Translations under genes and position numbers: made by a program
Notes under the pieces: generated by a model
The model's database searches: none
The model's input: the letters and a program-made list of their open reading frames with translations, nothing else
Told to the model about the DNA's origin: nothing
Part shown: positions 29,174 to 35,259 of the stretch, piece by piece
How the letters are laid out: every line of letters starts with the position of its first letter
Numbering within the stretch: the first letter of the stretch is position 1
Source of the DNA: Alistipes sp.
GTDB lineage: Bacteria; Bacteroidota; Bacteroidia; Bacteroidales; Rikenellaceae
Reading direction: 5' to 3'
DNA: 64,000 nucleotides
NCBI GenBank assembly: GCA_017437045.1
Contig: JAFSBY010000040.1
Span: forward strand, 1-64,000

Positions 29174-29473
29174 CTAATAGTAGTAATCGTAGGCATCATA
29201 CTCATTAAGTGCTACGAGCAGCACTACCACATAAATTAGGTAAAGTACCCAGAAGGCGATACCGCAACCAAACGCCCACCAAAACCATTTTTTGGCTTTT
29301 GCGTTGGCCTCGGCAGCAGCTACATCGTCTCCGGCGCCATGCTTGCTGTTTGCGATGGCAGCATAGACGATCGAAGGAATACCGAAAGGTGTACAGCAGA
29401 AGATGGACGAAAGAATCGCCCATACCAAGAAACTTTTATGCTCAACGGGTGCAATAGGTTTGTTGTTTTCCAT
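29174..29473 (-). CDS. CD225/dispanin-family small membrane protein
   Basis: 99 residues with two membrane helices. The first carries the family motif in FLVWAILSSIFCCTPFGIPSIVYA. The short loop AAAEANAKAKKWFWWAFG follows, then the second helix, and the tail is acidic and Tyr-rich (DAYDYYY). Bacterial CD225 proteins resemble the membrane-hairpin region of the interferon-induced transmembrane proteins; their function is unknown. The ATG at 29473 is preferred over an in-frame TTG two codons earlier. A TACCTTTG box is at 29533-29526. Confidence 0.85.
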   Translation of the reverse strand: MENNKPIAPVEHKSFLVWAILSSIFCCTPFGIPSIVYAAIANSKHGAGDDVAAAEANAKAKKWFWWAFGCGIAFWVLYLIYVVVLLVALNEYDAYDYYY

Positions 29474-29553
29474 AATCAACGAGTTTTAGAGCGTTAATAA
29501 ATCCATTTTGGCCCAAAGGCTATTACAAAGGTAGTACAAAACTTTTTGAAACG

Positions 29554-29670: not shown

Positions 29671-30552
29671 TTACTCCCACTCGCCGACCTCGCCGTCGAT
29701 CGAAATTTCGATCTTCTCCTGATCGGGCGAGGTGTTGAGCGTCACGGTGAAGGTGTGCTGCTTACCCGGGCGGAGCGAAATGCTGCTCTCCAAGAGATAG
29801 GCGATGCCCTCCATGGTGATCTCCACCAGCGGCGTTCTGCGCTGAATGAATTGAGGCACAACAATCGCATCGAAGGTATCCTCGTCCACCTGGCGCATTT
29901 TGATCGTTTTGTGGCCACCTTGATGATTGACCTCTACCGAGCCGATGCGCCAATCCACAAAGGCCGATGTGGCGGTGTTGTAGATGTGTACATCAATATC
30001 TTCGGGCAACTCTCCCTCGAACTTCGGGCCACGCACGATGTCCACCATGAGGCGCGTCATCATGTGGCGGAACTGCAGGTGCACGGTGCCGTCGGCACGC
30101 GTCACCGAGGTGGCTTTTGCCCACATCAAATCCGACTTCTCGTAGCCGCCCAATACGCCATCGGCCGACGGCTGCGACTGATCGGCTTCGACCTCATATA
30201 GGATGTCGTTCATCGACGCGGTGGGCTGATAGGGATAGAATCCGTAGAAGTCGCACGGATTTTCGCTCCAATAGAGCGTGCGGCCGCTTGTCCACTTCGC
30301 TCCGTCGTAGCTCATCTGCTCGTTGTTGAGGTAGTTACCCGAGGGCTGCACCTCGGCCACCTCGTCGCCGTTATACTCCACGGCATAGAGGCTCATCCGG
30401 TCGCCCTCCTCGAAGTGGGTCAGCGTTGCACGTGTCCCACCCATCGAAGCCTCAACGGTGATCTCGTTGGGCATCTCTTGCGCAAAATCATGTTCTTTGT
30501 CGCAACTTGCTGCCAGCAGCAGTATGACGGCAATACTTATATATTTTTTCAT
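29671..30552 (-). CDS. Fimbrillin-family lipoprotein
   Basis: 293 residues. The lipobox LLAASC gives lipid attachment at Cys17. The N-terminal half has the fimbrillin pattern: VEASMGGTRATLTHFEEGDRMSLYAV, then ENPCDFYGFYPYQ, SDLMWAKATSV and LQFRHMMTRLMVDI. The C-terminal half ends with RPGKQHTFTVTLN and a final acidic strand GEVGEWE. Proteins of this type form or anchor surface pili in Bacteroidales after lipid processing. It is the last gene of a four-gene operon, 17 bp after the M64 fusion gene. Confidence 0.9.
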   Translation of the reverse strand: MKKYISIAVILLLAASCDKEHDFAQEMPNEITVEASMGGTRATLTHFEEGDRMSLYAVEYNGDEVAEVQPSGNYLNNEQMSYDGAKWTSGRTLYWSENPCDFYGFYPYQPTASMNDILYEVEADQSQPSADGVLGGYEKSDLMWAKATSVTRADGTVHLQFRHMMTRLMVDIVRGPKFEGELPEDIDVHIYNTATSAFVDWRIGSVEVNHQGGHKTIKMRQVDEDTFDAIVVPQFIQRRTPLVEITMEGIAYLLESSISLRPGKQHTFTVTLNTSPDQEKIEISIDGEVGEWE

Positions 30553-30569: not shown

Positions 30570-33500
30570 TTATTTCAGCGGGCTGTCACCCATAAATTTC
30601 GGCGGCAGTTGTTTCTGTGCCGAGGCTGCCTGCCCTGCGCTTGCCTTCTCCACCAGCGTGCGCGTCACAAAATCGTTGTTCGAGGCATCGCGCACATCGT
30701 TGGCATAGAAATCCTCGATCGAGAACTCCTCGCCTGCGTAGCGTTTGATGCGCTCCACCATCTCCTGACGCTGGATGGCCGAGTAGTAGGGCACATTGTT
30801 GTTCATACACGAATTTGCCTCCGAGCGGTAGATGCCGCGCGAGTGGTAGTAGCCGCCCTCGTACATATCGACCACATTCGTGTAGTCGGGGTGCGCAAAG
30901 AGGTGCGCCCACTCCACAGTGTGGTAGTCCGCGTTGGTCGAGAGGTTGCGATACCAGCCGAGTGCCTTACCGTCGTTGAACGCATTGAGGTGTTTGCAAC
31001 AGGGGCACGTACAACTCTGAATAAATGCGTTGTGGTAGATATACTCATCGGCCAACTTCGCAAAGCCGTGACCACCCGCCTCGTGCTGCACGATGCCGCG
31101 GAAATCATACGGATAGGCGTCGCGGCTCATCGGGCAGACAGCGATGGCCGACCCGTCGCCCCACATGTAGCAGATGCCGCCATAGTCCTCCGTATTCTCG
31201 ACCATCACCACAAGCGTCCGGTTGAGGTTGCCCTCATCGACCGTGGCCGCCTTCATGGCATACTCGTAGGTCGCCTCGGTGTCGGGTGCGATGCCCTCGA
31301 GCGAGTACTGCGAGCCGAATTTGGCATCCTTCACCGTGTTCACCGTACCCATACCCGAATCGTCGGACATGCCGAATACGGTGTAGATGTTGAAATACTC
31401 CTTGTAGCTCTTATAAGGCTCGATGGCGAAGTAGTAGCCAATCGCCTCGTTGATGCCGTTGAGGTAGCTGCCTGTTGCGATGTCGCGCGCATCGAAGCAG
31501 TCGCCCATAAAGACAATGTTCACGCCCCCTCCTACGGTTGCCGTCTGGTTCGTCATCACCTCCCCGTCGCTATAATCGTAGTCATACTGTTGCACATCCA
31601 TCGTTACGCGACGATCCTTACTCTCGAGCAGGAAGACAATCTCGCCCGCACGACCCGTGTGGGTCTCGCTCTTCCAATTACCATTGGTGCCCATTACCTC
31701 AAAGGTAAAGGTGTCGCTCGTGCGGGGCATCTCGCTGACGCTTACCGTCACCTCGGTGCGGCCCACGCCGCTTGCGGGGGTTACCGTCACCCATTCGGGC
31801 GTGCTCTCCACCTGCCAAGCCTCGCCACTCGGCACACGGAGCAGATAGCTCTTGCTGTAGGCGGCATTGAGCGTGCGGATATGCTTGCGCGCGATGGAGA
31901 AGTCGTAGTAGGCGCTGATGCGATTGAAGTCCGACCACCCCGCTGCGGTCTGGTAGAGGGCTACCGACTGCTCGGGCACCTCGAGCGTCAAATTCTCCTT
32001 GCCAACACCGTTGAATGCCCCACTGCCCACCACCGGAGGTATCGTCGCATCGCACTGTAGCTTGGTCAGATAATAACAACCACTAAACGCATTGTTACCA
32101 ATCGTTGTTACGGTGGAGGGGATCACAACCGATGGTAATGTTGAGCAACCATAAAATGCTTTGCTACCAATAGACAGCAGCCCTTCAGGCAGTATAATCG
32201 GCTCTGAGAGGCGAAAGTTGTTGTCAAATGCACTCGAGCCTAATTTTACCAATTCGCTTTCCTCCTCAAATACCACTTTCGAGAAATTTGTACGGTCGAA
32301 AGCCTGCGATTCTATGATCTGTACTCCTTTGGGAATCACCAATTCACCTTGGAATTTAGTGTTAGAAAAAGCCAACTCGTCGATTTTGGTAAGGCTTGAG
32401 CTAAGCGTTAATTGCCCATTGAATGCACCAACATGAAAAGCATGGCGGCCTATACGCTTAATATTATTCGGAATCACTAAATCGCCGGTGAACGCACAGA
32501 AGGTAAAACAGCTGTTGGGGATTTCTGTTAATTGGGAGGGAATGGTCAGCGTACCACCCAGCATAGAGCAACTACTAAATGCAGAATCCCCAATACTCTC
32601 AAGGCTCTCGGGAAGGGTCAGCGTGCCGGCAAGCGAACTACAGCCATTGAATGCATAAGAACCAATTCTCTTCAGATTTACAGGAAGTTGCAGAGAATAT
32701 ATATTGGTTTTCTCGAATGCACCGGATCCAATCTCTATTACATCATCGGGAATAATCAGAGCACCGGAGAATGTGGTGGAATCAAAAGCGTAGTCGCCAA
32801 TTTTAGTAACCTTCTCGGGGAAGACAAAATTTACTAAAGACGATTTGTAAGAAAATGCAGACGCCGGGATTTCGTGATCGAGGTAGTAAGAAGTGCTCTC
32901 GTAGTAACGGACAACAACGGTTGCGCCCGGATAGCGAGCCGCTACCTCGTTGTTCGCCTCCTCGAGCGATTGCGGCATTTCGGTCGAAAAGTATTCAAAG
33001 CCCGTCTGGCCATTGATCGATCCGTGCCAATACCATTTGCAGCCAACAATCTCTGTCTCTTTGAGGTTGATCGACTGCAGGATCTCCATCTGATCGCGCA
33101 TAAAATAGAAATCGGCTGCATTGATCTTGCCGCTGATCTTCAGATTTTTGATCTTATTGGGGTTTTTCTTGGCCGCACGGAGCAGTTGGCCCAGCGTACC
33201 GGCCTCCTCCTGATGCACGACATAGTATTGGCGCGCCTCGCCGCCGTGGGTATCCAGATCGGCCACCCACTCGACGATCTCGGTGTTGATCAGCTGCAGC
33301 TCCACCTCGCCCGTGTGGCCCTTCTTGTTGAGCCGGATCGAGAATTTCGACTGCTTGCCCGCCTCATAGACAAAGCCTTCGCTCATCTTAAAGCGATGGG
33401 CAATGCCGTCGAGCGTAATCGAGAACAAGGCCTTGCCCGCCTCGACCGTCTGCGGCACGACAATGGCGCGGAAGCCCTCCGCATTGCTCTTCATCACGAT

Positions 33501-34190
33501 GCCCTCGCTCGGTGCCTCGCCCGTGGCGGTAGCGACACCCGTAGCGAGGTCGATGGCGGCCGTGCGGGTGGTGTTCATCACCAAGAGGCTCTTCTCCAAA
33601 GCGTCGAACTCGCCCGCAGCAAAGCCCTCACCCTCGACCAATACGACATGGGCACACGCCAAACGGTGCGAGAAGCGCAGCTTCACCTTCGCCTCGCTCG
33701 GGGTGATGTTCTCGGCCTTGGCCCACAAGAAGTCGGAAATGGCAAAGCCGTCGTGGGCATTCTTGCCCGACTGGTCTTGTGCCACCTCAAAGGCATAGGC
33801 GTTCACGCTGGCCGGATGATCGTAAGGATAGTAGGCGTAGAGATCGATGTTCGTCTCGGCATTCTTATAATAGACACCGCCCTGCGAATGCCACGTCAAA
33901 GCGGCCTCGTCGTAGGTGTAGCGGGCGTTATCGACCTGATTGCCCTCGTCGAGGAGCGTGCCGGCCTGCGTGTTGTCGTTGGTGTAGTTCACGCCATAGA
34001 GACCCACCTGATCTCCCTCGCAGAAACCACCGTCATCGACGCGCGAAATGTACTGCTGGTCGATACTGTTGTCAATCACAATGGGATAGGATACGCCCTC
34101 CATGGGGTTGTAGTCTATCCCCTCATCCTTTTGGCAGGCGGTCATCAACAAGGTCGCCAAACCAAATGCAAGAATAGTTTTGAGTTTCAT
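30570..34190 (-). CDS. Fimbrillin-like / leucine-rich repeat / M64 metallopeptidase fusion lipoprotein
   Basis: 1206 residues. The lipobox LMTAC lipidates Cys19. Residues ~20-310 are fimbrillin-like (DFLWAKAENITPSEAKVKLRFSHRLA region). Residues ~325-430 form a linker domain (LKISGKINAADFYFMRDQM). Residues ~430-770 are BspA-type LRR_5 repeats of IGDYAF / LPESLESIGDSAF type. Residues ~780-870 look BACON-like (STPEWVTVTPASG). Residues ~900-1165 are an M64 (IgA-peptidase-like) domain with VNIVFMGDCFD, the zinc motif HEAGGHGFAKLADEY (His1036, Glu1037, His1041) and the C-terminal EANSCMNN. It is probably a surface protease displayed with, or on, fimbrillins; the target is unknown. The LRR DNA is AT-richer than the rest. 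Confidence 0.85.
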   Translation of the reverse strand: MKLKTILAFGLATLLMTACQKDEGIDYNPMEGVSYPIVIDNSIDQQYISRVDDGGFCEGDQVGLYGVNYTNDNTQAGTLLDEGNQVDNARYTYDEAALTWHSQGGVYYKNAETNIDLYAYYPYDHPASVNAYAFEVAQDQSGKNAHDGFAISDFLWAKAENITPSEAKVKLRFSHRLACAHVVLVEGEGFAAGEFDALEKSLLVMNTTRTAAIDLATGVATATGEAPSEGIVMKSNAEGFRAIVVPQTVEAGKALFSITLDGIAHRFKMSEGFVYEAGKQSKFSIRLNKKGHTGEVELQLINTEIVEWVADLDTHGGEARQYYVVHQEEAGTLGQLLRAAKKNPNKIKNLKISGKINAADFYFMRDQMEILQSINLKETEIVGCKWYWHGSINGQTGFEYFSTEMPQSLEEANNEVAARYPGATVVVRYYESTSYYLDHEIPASAFSYKSSLVNFVFPEKVTKIGDYAFDSTTFSGALIIPDDVIEIGSGAFEKTNIYSLQLPVNLKRIGSYAFNGCSSLAGTLTLPESLESIGDSAFSSCSMLGGTLTIPSQLTEIPNSCFTFCAFTGDLVIPNNIKRIGRHAFHVGAFNGQLTLSSSLTKIDELAFSNTKFQGELVIPKGVQIIESQAFDRTNFSKVVFEEESELVKLGSSAFDNNFRLSEPIILPEGLLSIGSKAFYGCSTLPSVVIPSTVTTIGNNAFSGCYYLTKLQCDATIPPVVGSGAFNGVGKENLTLEVPEQSVALYQTAAGWSDFNRISAYYDFSIARKHIRTLNAAYSKSYLLRVPSGEAWQVESTPEWVTVTPASGVGRTEVTVSVSEMPRTSDTFTFEVMGTNGNWKSETHTGRAGEIVFLLESKDRRVTMDVQQYDYDYSDGEVMTNQTATVGGGVNIVFMGDCFDARDIATGSYLNGINEAIGYYFAIEPYKSYKEYFNIYTVFGMSDDSGMGTVNTVKDAKFGSQYSLEGIAPDTEATYEYAMKAATVDEGNLNRTLVVMVENTEDYGGICYMWGDGSAIAVCPMSRDAYPYDFRGIVQHEAGGHGFAKLADEYIYHNAFIQSCTCPCCKHLNAFNDGKALGWYRNLSTNADYHTVEWAHLFAHPDYTNVVDMYEGGYYHSRGIYRSEANSCMNNNVPYYSAIQRQEMVERIKRYAGEEFSIEDFYANDVRDASNNDFVTRTLVEKASAGQAASAQKQLPPKFMGDSPLK

Positions 34191-34216: not shown

Positions 34217-35140
34217 TTATTCTGCCGTGCCCTCGTTCTCCGAGCCGTCGCCCCAGCCATCGACGCCCATATTGGTGTCGGACGAGGGGATGGTCAGCTC
34301 GCGCATGAGGCGCTTGTATTTGTTGCGCTCGAATGTCAGGCTCTTATCCACCGTGAAGGTCTGCTCGCCACCGTAGTAGCCCCCAACCTTGACCGAGATA
34401 CCGCCCGCATAGGTCGCATGGGGTAGCACAAGCCAAAAATCGGTCGCCTCGGCCTCGCTCGTGCCGATTGCAACGCCCTCCGAGCAGCTGAGCGTGATGG
34501 AGGTCGCGGTGCCCGTCATCGTGAGCGTGGGCGTACCGCCATAGGTCGGCACCAACTGACACTTGCCCGCCAAAGGTTCACCGCCAAGGCTCGAAAGGGT
34601 GATCGACCCGACGGTCTGCCCCTCGGCACCCCACAGACGGATCAACAGGAAGCTGCACGCATTGCGGAAACGAAGGTCAAAATCGTCCAGATCGGCCGTA
34701 ATGGCCACCATGACATTTGCATCCTTGCCCACCGACCCGGCAACATAGGTCTGGGTTGCAGGAAGCGTGTATTGGATGTAGTCGGGCGTGCCATAGACAT
34801 ATTTGGTCGTCGAGGCATAGGGATAGACCGCATAGTAACGATCCAGGTCGTTGCCCGTGCCAAAGCCCTGCGATACGAACTCAAAATCGCCCGCATTGTC
34901 GCCATCTTCGCCCACAAACTTATACTTCTTGTTGCGCGTGATGCCCTCGAAGAGGGTGATCAGGTCGCCCGCATTCCAATGCAGACGGATCTGATCGTCC
35001 AAAAATACGCGCGACTCCTCCTCGGCAATGATGCCGTGGAAGGTGCGGCCTTCGGGAGTGAGGGTCGTGCCTTCGTCAATCTTGGTGCTACATGCCGCCA
35101 ACAGCAACACCAAAGCACCTAAAAATAACTTTTTCATCAT
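34217..35140 (-). CDS. Fimbrillin-like lipoprotein
   Basis: 307 residues. The lipobox LLAACS gives Cys17 (counted from the first of two Met codons). The fimbrillin-type order is present: a ligand-binding-like N-terminal part (RVFLDDQIRLHWNAGDLITLFEG), DRYYAVYPY, a core FDLRFRNACSFLLIRLWG, and the C-terminal KSLTFERNKYKRLM that resembles the fimbrillin-like end. The tail (GVDGWGDGSENEG) is acidic and Gly-rich. It lies 11 bp after the 35-codon gene and 26 bp before the fusion gene, so it is the second gene of the operon. Confidence 0.82.
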   Translation of the reverse strand: MMKKLFLGALVLLLAACSTKIDEGTTLTPEGRTFHGIIAEEESRVFLDDQIRLHWNAGDLITLFEGITRNKKYKFVGEDGDNAGDFEFVSQGFGTGNDLDRYYAVYPYASTTKYVYGTPDYIQYTLPATQTYVAGSVGKDANVMVAITADLDDFDLRFRNACSFLLIRLWGAEGQTVGSITLSSLGGEPLAGKCQLVPTYGGTPTLTMTGTATSITLSCSEGVAIGTSEAEATDFWLVLPHATYAGGISVKVGGYYGGEQTFTVDKSLTFERNKYKRLMRELTIPSSDTNMGVDGWGDGSENEGTAE

Positions 35141-35151
35141 GGATCGGCCGT

Positions 35152-35259
35152 TTAGATATCCTCATCAAATTCGGGGTTCTCCAACGAGCCGGCAAAACCC
35201 TGCTCAACGGCCATCTCAACCTCCTCGATCTGAGGCTCAACATAGATAAATTTGTCCAT
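35152..35259 (-). CDS. 35-residue peptide heading the fimbrillin operon
   Basis: Short gene reading MDKFIYVEPQIEEVEMAV, then EQGFAGSLENPEFDEDI. The layout (a Lys/aromatic start, an EP-x-x-E-x-x-E amphipathic section, GFAGS, and an acidic Pro/Asp/Glu end) resembles the small hypothetical peptides often found beside fimbrillin and surface-protein genes in Bacteroidales (from memory, not a database hit). It has no signal peptide. The stop is 11 bp before the next gene, which argues for co-translation. Immediately upstream of the ATG is a 12-bp inverted repeat. It could be a leader peptide, a precursor peptide or a chaperone-like partner; the function is unknown. Confidence 0.65.
   Translation of the reverse strand: MDKFIYVEPQIEEVEMAVEQGFAGSLENPEFDEDI

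Follow-up and report, generated by a model that had tools for sequence, protein, structure and literature searches.

Gene and domain organization

The analysed window, a 64,000-nucleotide stretch of an Alistipes sp. contig (JAFSBY010000040.1), carries on its reverse strand a set of genes that includes a 1206-aa lipoprotein of composite architecture. The following features were assigned:

30570..34190, reverse strand: 1206-aa lipoprotein with fimbrillin-like, BspA-type leucine-rich repeat (LRR), BACON-like and M64-like domains
34119..34190, reverse strand: signal peptide with lipobox Cys19 and export-signal-like CQKDEG, residues 1–24 (from the sequence, its relatives and the signal given in PMC5080379)
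33267..34046, reverse strand: fimbrillin-like (Mfa_like_1) domain, residues 49–308
31956..32873, reverse strand: BspA-type leucine-rich repeats (LRR_5), residues about 440–745
31575..31862, reverse strand: BACON-like beta-sandwich, residues about 777–872, below the Pfam cut-off
30705..31550, reverse strand: M64-like peptidase domain, residues 881–1162
31041..31085, reverse strand: expanded zinc motif HEAGGHGFAKLADEY, residues 1036–1050
30990..31013, reverse strand: Cys/His cluster CTCPCCKH, residues 1060–1067
30804..30812, reverse strand: SCM, residues 1127–1129, with the invariant Met of a predicted Met-turn
29671..30552, reverse strand: downstream fimbrillin-like lipoprotein, 293 aa
34217..35140, reverse strand: upstream 307-aa lipoprotein, fimbrillin-like by profile comparison only, with the C-terminal tail GVDGWGDGSENEGTAE
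35152..35259, reverse strand: 35-aa micro-ORF MDKFIYVEPQIEEVEMAVEQGFAGSLENPEFDEDI heading the gene set, near-identical to a micro-ORF in locus L102
29630..29658, reverse strand: terminator-like stem-loop past the downstream fimbrillin, a consensus match only

A Pfam profile search of the 1206-aa protein returned Mfa_like_1 (E 3e-51), LRR_5 (218.8 bits; cut-off 27.7) and Peptidase_M64 (PF09471; 50.7 bits; curated cut-off 26); BACON scored under its cut-off, with a fold match weaker than that of the LRR domain. Domain search and fold comparison thus confirm the initial annotation in reading fimbrillin-like, BspA LRR, BACON-like and M64-like parts in one chain, and structure prediction of the full protein places a fimbrillin fold at its N-terminus. 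At a pTM of 0.49 the model does not fix the arrangement of the domains, and it contains no metal.

The N-terminal fold and the lipoprotein signal are shared with Bacteroidales fimbrillins (Mfa_like_1; PDB 4k4k, 3ufi, 3sy6, 4dgu), but here the fold belongs to a peptidase-like protein, as its N-terminal domain, and not to a free pilin. The second domain resembles BspA-type LRR surface proteins in sequence and fold, and the third shows a weaker likeness to BACON domains; in this protein both lie between the fimbrillin and peptidase domains.

Neighbouring genes and conservation of the architecture

A fimbrillin gene is the downstream neighbour of 79 of 82 related genes and the upstream neighbour of 41 of 70, counts that leave out other protease fusions. 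The C-terminal W tail of the upstream gene product recurs in 43 of 47 upstream lipoproteins; among other ORFs it occurs in 31 of 845, and among other ORFs with a lipobox in 14 of 274. The pattern used had been loosened after the tails had been seen; its stricter form gave 27/47. Several of the background ORFs with the tail are fimbrillins of the same sets. A later W-tail pattern, also made after the fact, gave 44 large, 10 small and 19 neither among 73 genes (background 74/6935). Nine of ten micro-ORFs stand, the one in L093 being the last part of a longer ORF that runs in from the edge of the contig; the micro-ORF pattern alone is not specific, since it produced 59 matches compared with 50 in reversed sequence.

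The domain combination had been put forward as unfamiliar. The arrangement of fimbrillin, LRR, BACON and M64 parts is real, but it is not peculiar to one genome: a look elsewhere in Bacteroidales recovered it in every one of the 72 ORFs that reach 1,050 aa among the 79 closest loci. Cultured carriers include Bacteroides faecalis (L132) and Xylanibacter rarus (L112). Within open-licence papers we found no description of the fimbrillin–LRR–M64 architecture or of an HExxxH motif in M64. Beyond the order, 69 of 395 genomes of the phylum matched at E ≤ 1e-10, with the motif read solely in the returned loci L133–L162; only two genomes, the own one and another from the same order, reached an E of 1e-30. 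A gene set for a large surface protein with pilus-subunit-like, recognition and zinc-protease parts is conserved in gut Bacteroidales.

Predicted surface display and the fimbrillin-like domain

Cys19 of the lipobox is followed by Q-K-D-E-G, which fits the Capnocytophaga lipoprotein export signal C-X-K-(D/E)2-X as given in PMC5080379. A lipobox, judged by pattern, is present in 71 of 72 long relatives, and 62 of these 71 have at least two acidic residues in the six positions past the cysteine. The surface display proposed initially is supported by these features.

In the PDB, the entries that come nearest to the N-terminal domain are labelled as fimbrial or cell-adhesion proteins (4k4k_A, TM 0.69; 3ufi, 0.71 by target length; E about 1e-12 for both). 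A predicted strand (residues 39–43) lies ahead of R50 at a putative cleavage site, and the basic residue is conserved (Arg in 48/67, Lys in 19/67). A search of the own genome for Peptidase_C25 (gingipain-type) was uninformative, as the control was without a match too. The fimbrillin fold and the conserved fimbrillin neighbour make a pilus association plausible.

An active surface lipoprotease could also carry the fimbrillin-like domain as a mere beta-sandwich spacer or partner-binding module, with no pilus or polymer. The surface-lipoprotein signal agrees with such a protein, as do the roughly 890 residues past the fimbrillin domain, unlike a simple polymerising pilin, and the 19 of 67 relatives that have Lys, not Arg, at the putative cleavage site. 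Likewise, no Mfa2-type anchor was found beside the gene set, the own genome having two weak unlinked matches, one of them over the cut-off. We nevertheless regard the spacer role as possible but rather doubtful, given the downstream fimbrillin neighbour in 79/82 related genes, the fimbrial or adhesive nature of the nearest structures and the W tail common to 43/47 upstream lipoproteins.

An expanded zinc motif

M64 enzymes have HExxH, whereas HEAGGHGFAKLADEY reads HExxxH, a feature overlooked in the initial annotation. The full M64 motif, HEXXHXXXGXXD, is absent: HEAGGHGFAKLAD corresponds to HExxxHxxxKxxD, with one residue inserted. According to a 2025 survey of M64 (PMC12402451), its clusters keep HEXXHXXXGXXD, save one trypanosomatid cluster without catalytic residues.

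H1036, E1037 and H1041 are invariant in 67 aligned relatives, but by construction, because those loci were found with the pattern HEAxGHG; therefore we read instead all 150 places listed by a profile-based scan of 268 genomes of the host's family, which were not chosen by motif. HExxxH followed by Asp or Glu occurs in 143 of them, HExxH in three, and the motif is lost in four, which are first genes of tandem trios. Each of the 143 HExxxH places has Lys, Arg or Leu where HEXXHXXXGXXD has glycine. We discarded the idea that the extra codon came from faulty sequencing or assembly, because 143/150 places, the window's own included, show the expanded spacing.

The insertion is not universal in the clade, since five genes read there have HExxH (L012/L047, L040, L293, L294, L295). 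In the tree the M64-like branch parts from classical M64 at 100% support, and a single origin of the insertion is compatible with the data but not demanded by them (AU p 0.26). With one residue more in its metal-binding motif than its known relatives, the zinc-protease part probably forms a new branch, with an unusual active site, within a known enzyme family. Its predicted zinc ligands are H1036, H1041 and D1048, with E1037 as the predicted general base.

The M64-like domain and its predicted metal site

By prediction, the C-terminal domain has the M64 (metzincin-type) fold. The Foldseek matches listed were M64, other metzincins and beta-sandwich chains; DPP III and other HExxxH folds were absent among them, and such a listing excludes neither these nor any other fold. 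Besides the spacing of the motif, the replaced glycine and the fusion to fimbrillin, LRR and BACON-like domains, the protein differs from the reference members of the family, ThomasA (Thomasclavelia ramosa), BF3526 (Bacteroides fragilis; PDB 9qdi/4df9) and BACOVA_00663 (3p1v), in its other cysteines. The structural zinc site of BF3526 consists of Glu and three Cys (E323, C398, C409, C412), according to PMC12402451. In the alignment the Glu is kept, other residues stand in for the CPVC cysteines, and the third Cys, C1128, falls one position off the classical residue. Fimbrillin-fused relatives have also gained a Cys/His cluster in the loop past the motif, CTCPCCKH (C1060 in 67/67, C1062 and H1067 in 62/67 aligned relatives, the M64 borders in this alignment and in the dN comparison being four residues off), which is missing from several other clade members. 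This new cluster may conceivably stand in for CPVC residue by residue.

With the family motif broken in two places, half of the structural zinc site gone and dead copies present in the same family, the inserted residue might have wrecked the zinc site and left a non-enzymatic binding protein on the M64 fold. We consider such a loss of function quite improbable: 143 of the 150 places, which were picked without regard to the motif, retain H, E, H and Asp/Glu, the M64 part has low dN/dS, and the dead copies display the look of an unconstrained motif, which the present one does not share. Three other families with HExxxH, DPP III (M49), TMCP1/KIAA0895L and TldD, are reported to be active. They differ from the present protein in fold and in third ligand, which is Glu for DPP III, a residue of an EEG motif for TMCP1 and Cys for TldD; here an Asp seven residues on and a metzincin-like fold are predicted.

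A classical M64 IgA protease with added domains is very improbable, given the separate branch at 100% support, the absence of HEXXHXXXGXXD and a separate classical M64 in the own genome (427-aa frame, HEFGH), and an IgA-specific function is rejected. The sole backing for the IgA-protease label of the initial annotation is the Pfam name (Peptidase_M64, 'IgA Peptidase', matched over the cut-off), and the case calls for caution with labels taken from that name.

Divergence of the LRR domain

In each of 14 close pairs dN is higher for the LRR domain than for the protease; the pairs are not independent, because they share sequences. LRR dN/dS is below 1 (0.06–0.40 in the 11 of 14 pairs where it is defined), and so gives no hint of positive selection. 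The fimbrillin or the BACON part outpaces the LRR in single pairs. The faster LRR change relative to the protease is consistent with a role in recognition.

Proposed function

The protein is best read as a probably active zinc peptidase displayed at the surface, with a metal site expanded by one residue on a metzincin fold; its activity, substrate and incorporation into a pilus we infer. On balance, we narrowly favour the view that gut Bacteroidales have a conserved surface gene set of which this protein is the enzyme subunit: a lipidated, LRR-aimed, metzincin-fold HExxxH zinc peptidase with fimbrillin partners. Judging by its signal, the precursor would acquire a lipid at Cys19 and undergo export to the cell surface. 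Its N-terminal fimbrillin-like fold would pair with the fimbrillins of adjacent genes, possibly as the terminal subunit of a fimbria-like polymer, and the LRR domain would bind the target. In the C-terminal M64-like domain, a predicted metzincin-fold zinc peptidase whose zinc helix has one extra residue (HExxxH by sequence), zinc would sit on H1036, H1041 and D1048, with water activated by E1037; the extra residue may be absorbed by a widening of the helical turn, which DPP III also shows.

We speculate further, while thinking it rather unlikely to hold in full, that this is the first metzincin-fold branch with a working HExxxH (as judged against open-licence papers), comprising protease subunits of fimbria-like polymers with motif-less structural paralogues and a target chosen by the LRR.

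A branch common in one Bacteroidales family departs from the HEXXHXXXGXXD that PMC12402451 gives for M64 clusters. If the enzyme is active, a metzincin helix can take up one additional residue just as DPP III does, and one clade offers a natural series (HExxH, HExxxH, motif lost) for the effect of this expansion on catalysis. Through this architecture, peptidase domains are also connected with the fimbrillin systems used by gut Bacteroidales at their surface.

Some of the tandem paralogues have lost the motif and are predicted dead copies, maybe serving as structural partners. TldD/TldE combines an HExxxH protease with a motif-less paralogue (PMC5810440), the gene trios here likewise carrying a motif-less paralogue; the same paper describes TldD/E as without structural similarity to other PDB proteins of its time.

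An expanded zinc motif in an M64-like fold

The 1206-aa lipoprotein (30570–34190, minus strand) carries HEAGGHGFAKLADEY versus HEF-GHSFGGLADEY when aligned with two M64 peptidases, Bacteroides fragilis BF3526 (PDB 4df9; also 9qdi) and BACOVA_00663 (PDB 3p1v): an inserted residue places the second His one position further from the catalytic Glu. The zinc ligands of BF3526, given in PMC12402451 as H311, H315 and D322, correspond in this alignment to H1036, H1041 and D1048, with the same spacing from the second His to Asp. Unlike classical M64 proteins, the protein lacks the CPVC cysteines of the structural zinc site. A CxC....H cluster in the post-motif loop is common to the fimbrillin-fused relatives (C1060 in 67/67, C1062 in 62/67, H1067 in 62/67).

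According to PMC12402451, HEXXHXXXGXXD, with Glu for Asp in some, is kept by all proteins across the M64 clusters, two of which are restricted to Bacteroidia; the exception is one trypanosomatid cluster without the catalytic residues. Fold and Pfam score place the window protein in the M64 neighbourhood. Because it departs from the catalytic motif characteristic of M64 in that literature, we do not file it under M64 but treat it as a sister branch that shares the M64 fold and has HExxxH.

Spread and origin of the motif

Of 268 Rikenellaceae genomes searched with a profile, 141 contained a match at E ≤ 1e-20, the best match being 1e-38 or better in 105 and between 1e-20 and 1e-28 in the remaining 36. 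The motif was read in every one of the 150 best-scoring places, window included: HExxxH with a third-ligand Asp (142) or Glu (1) was found in 143, HExxH in 3, and the motif was lost in 4. The profile is biased towards HExxxH, since 14 such sequences built it; the four motif-less genes were nonetheless picked up. At the position of the classical Gly, the 143 HExxxH places carry Lys (129), Arg (9) or Leu (5), and Gly in none.

In a sample of the order Bacteroidales, the M64 part of the window protein found a match at E ≤ 1e-5 in 105/393 genomes. Where the motif was read, clade genes there had HExxxH in 20/22 and HExxH in 2/22, and classical M64 domains HExxH in 43/43. In-clade scorers with HExxH (HEGSH, HEFSH, HEMGH) occur at the related loci L293, L294, L295, L012/L047 and L040, and may help in dating the insertion. 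The window's own genome also encodes a separate classical M64 protein (G000:C2:133068-133829, 427-aa frame, HEFGHLLMGLGDEY).

A tree of 83 M64 domains, with seven motif columns picked for exclusion (six of these lay among the trimmed columns), separated 42 classical domains from 41 others (ultrafast bootstrap 100%); support was equally 100% for one group made up of the 23 fimbrillin-fused domains. It was built without L293, L294 and L295, found later, and its non-classical branch includes two HExxH members. Forcing all HExxxH proteins together gave an AU p of 0.26, so this topology is not rejected, and both one gain with later losses and more than one gain are possible.

Tandem paralogues and predicted activity

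Among the 150 best places, four contigs (L163–L166) hold three matches inside 12 kb. Each carries three fimbrillin-LRR-BACON-M64 paralogues in tandem, followed by one or two fimbrillins. In the four first genes Lys, Ile, Arg and Arg stand in place of the second His, and Pro (three) or Ser (one) in place of the Asp; the second and third genes retain HExxxH and Asp on all four contigs. These first genes are the only motif-less ones among the 150 places, and the losses are not independent, since three of the four look orthologous. The first gene at L166:607-4085 is split into two ORFs, a fimbrillin part and then an LRR-BACON-M64 part.

Judged from sequence, the window protein in all likelihood works like a zinc peptidase. 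This is favoured by the retention of the motif in 143/150 best places, by M64-part dN/dS of 0.03–0.11 (13/14 closest pairs where defined; pairs share sequences), by the reported activity of other HExxxH enzymes (DPP III, TMCP1, TldD) and by the trios, a natural control that agrees. Against it stand the absence of the classical Gly from all 143 places and a predicted model that is metal-free.

Architecture among relatives

The initial annotation had proposed a chain joining a fimbrillin-like module, BspA-type LRRs, a BACON-like domain and an M64-like peptidase, and the same combination is conserved among close relatives. Scanning 84,980 species genomes with the expanded-motif pattern gave 577 stretches, 531 encoding a relative, and the best 79 loci, closest relatives only, were kept. 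HExxxH is present there by construction; the architecture is independent of the search pattern. Of their 85 M64 ORFs, 72 are at least 1,050 aa long, and without exception these match the fimbrillin, LRR and BACON-like parts of the window protein; the other 13 are truncated at contig ends (10) or short (L055, L080 over two ORFs, and the second copy at L098). Carriers include Alistipes and other Rikenellaceae, Prevotella, Bacteroides faecalis, Xylanibacter rarus, Butyricimonas, Mediterranea and Muribaculaceae, many records being animal-gut MAGs.

Other clade members combine BACON repeats with other LRRs without fimbrillin, or form larger fusions. Three of the latter with HExxxH (L167, L168, L169; 1539, 1762 and 1430 aa) have the M64 part towards the C-terminus and give no fimbrillin match.

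Gene set and proposed mechanism

The gene set and the gene just after it, all on the minus strand of the window, are:
29174–29479 (−): 101-aa CD225-family protein (Pfam E 1.4e-16), directly after the gene set
29671–30552 (−): downstream fimbrillin-like lipoprotein
30570–34190 (−): the 1206-aa lipoprotein
34217–35140 (−): upstream lipoprotein
35152–35259 (−): micro-ORF

A downstream fimbrillin gene is present in 79/82 cases with at least 700 nt 3′ (other protease fusions excluded from the count). The upstream slot is variable: in 41/70 cases it encodes a fimbrillin (27) or a protein related to the window's upstream one (14), and the upstream lipoproteins form several groups without BLAST similarity to each other.

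Around the directly observed architecture, motif, conservation and neighbours, the following mechanism may be proposed. Since CQKDEG fits the lipoprotein export signal C-X-K-(D/E)2-X outlined in PMC5080379, the protein would be lipidated at Cys19 and then exported to the surface. Its fimbrillin domain may pair with the fimbrillins encoded alongside, because a predicted strand precedes the conserved basic R50, as the strand-exchange mechanism described in PMC5954841 requires. The LRR domain is a candidate target-binding module; its dN is higher than the M64 part's in 14/14 close pairs (pairs share sequences; another domain is faster in single pairs), with LRR dN/dS below 1 in the 11/14 pairs where it is defined. 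Substrate would then be hydrolyzed at the expanded zinc site.

W tails and micro-ORFs

A C-terminal tail with Trp 11–14 residues from the end, a pattern devised after examples were seen, occurs in 43/47 upstream lipoproteins, 31/845 other ORFs and 14/274 other lipobox ORFs of at least 200 aa. In 9/73 cases it sits on a bare micro-ORF just upstream.

Micro-ORFs of about 35–57 aa adjoin the 5′ side of the protease or its upstream partner in the window and at L054, L058, L059, L069, L071, L072, L076, L081, L097, L108 and others. Often they carry Pro and then E.G(F/Y)..S, and many end in the upstream-lipoprotein tail W...G.AE. NCBIfam searches with six of them gave nothing over a cut-off (one chance match, E 0.049), and Pfam searches with four gave nothing at E ≤ 0.1. 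The W tail is also found on a 1192-aa protein encoded between two protease genes (L063:9917-13492), with DUF4988, collagen-like and BACON matches.
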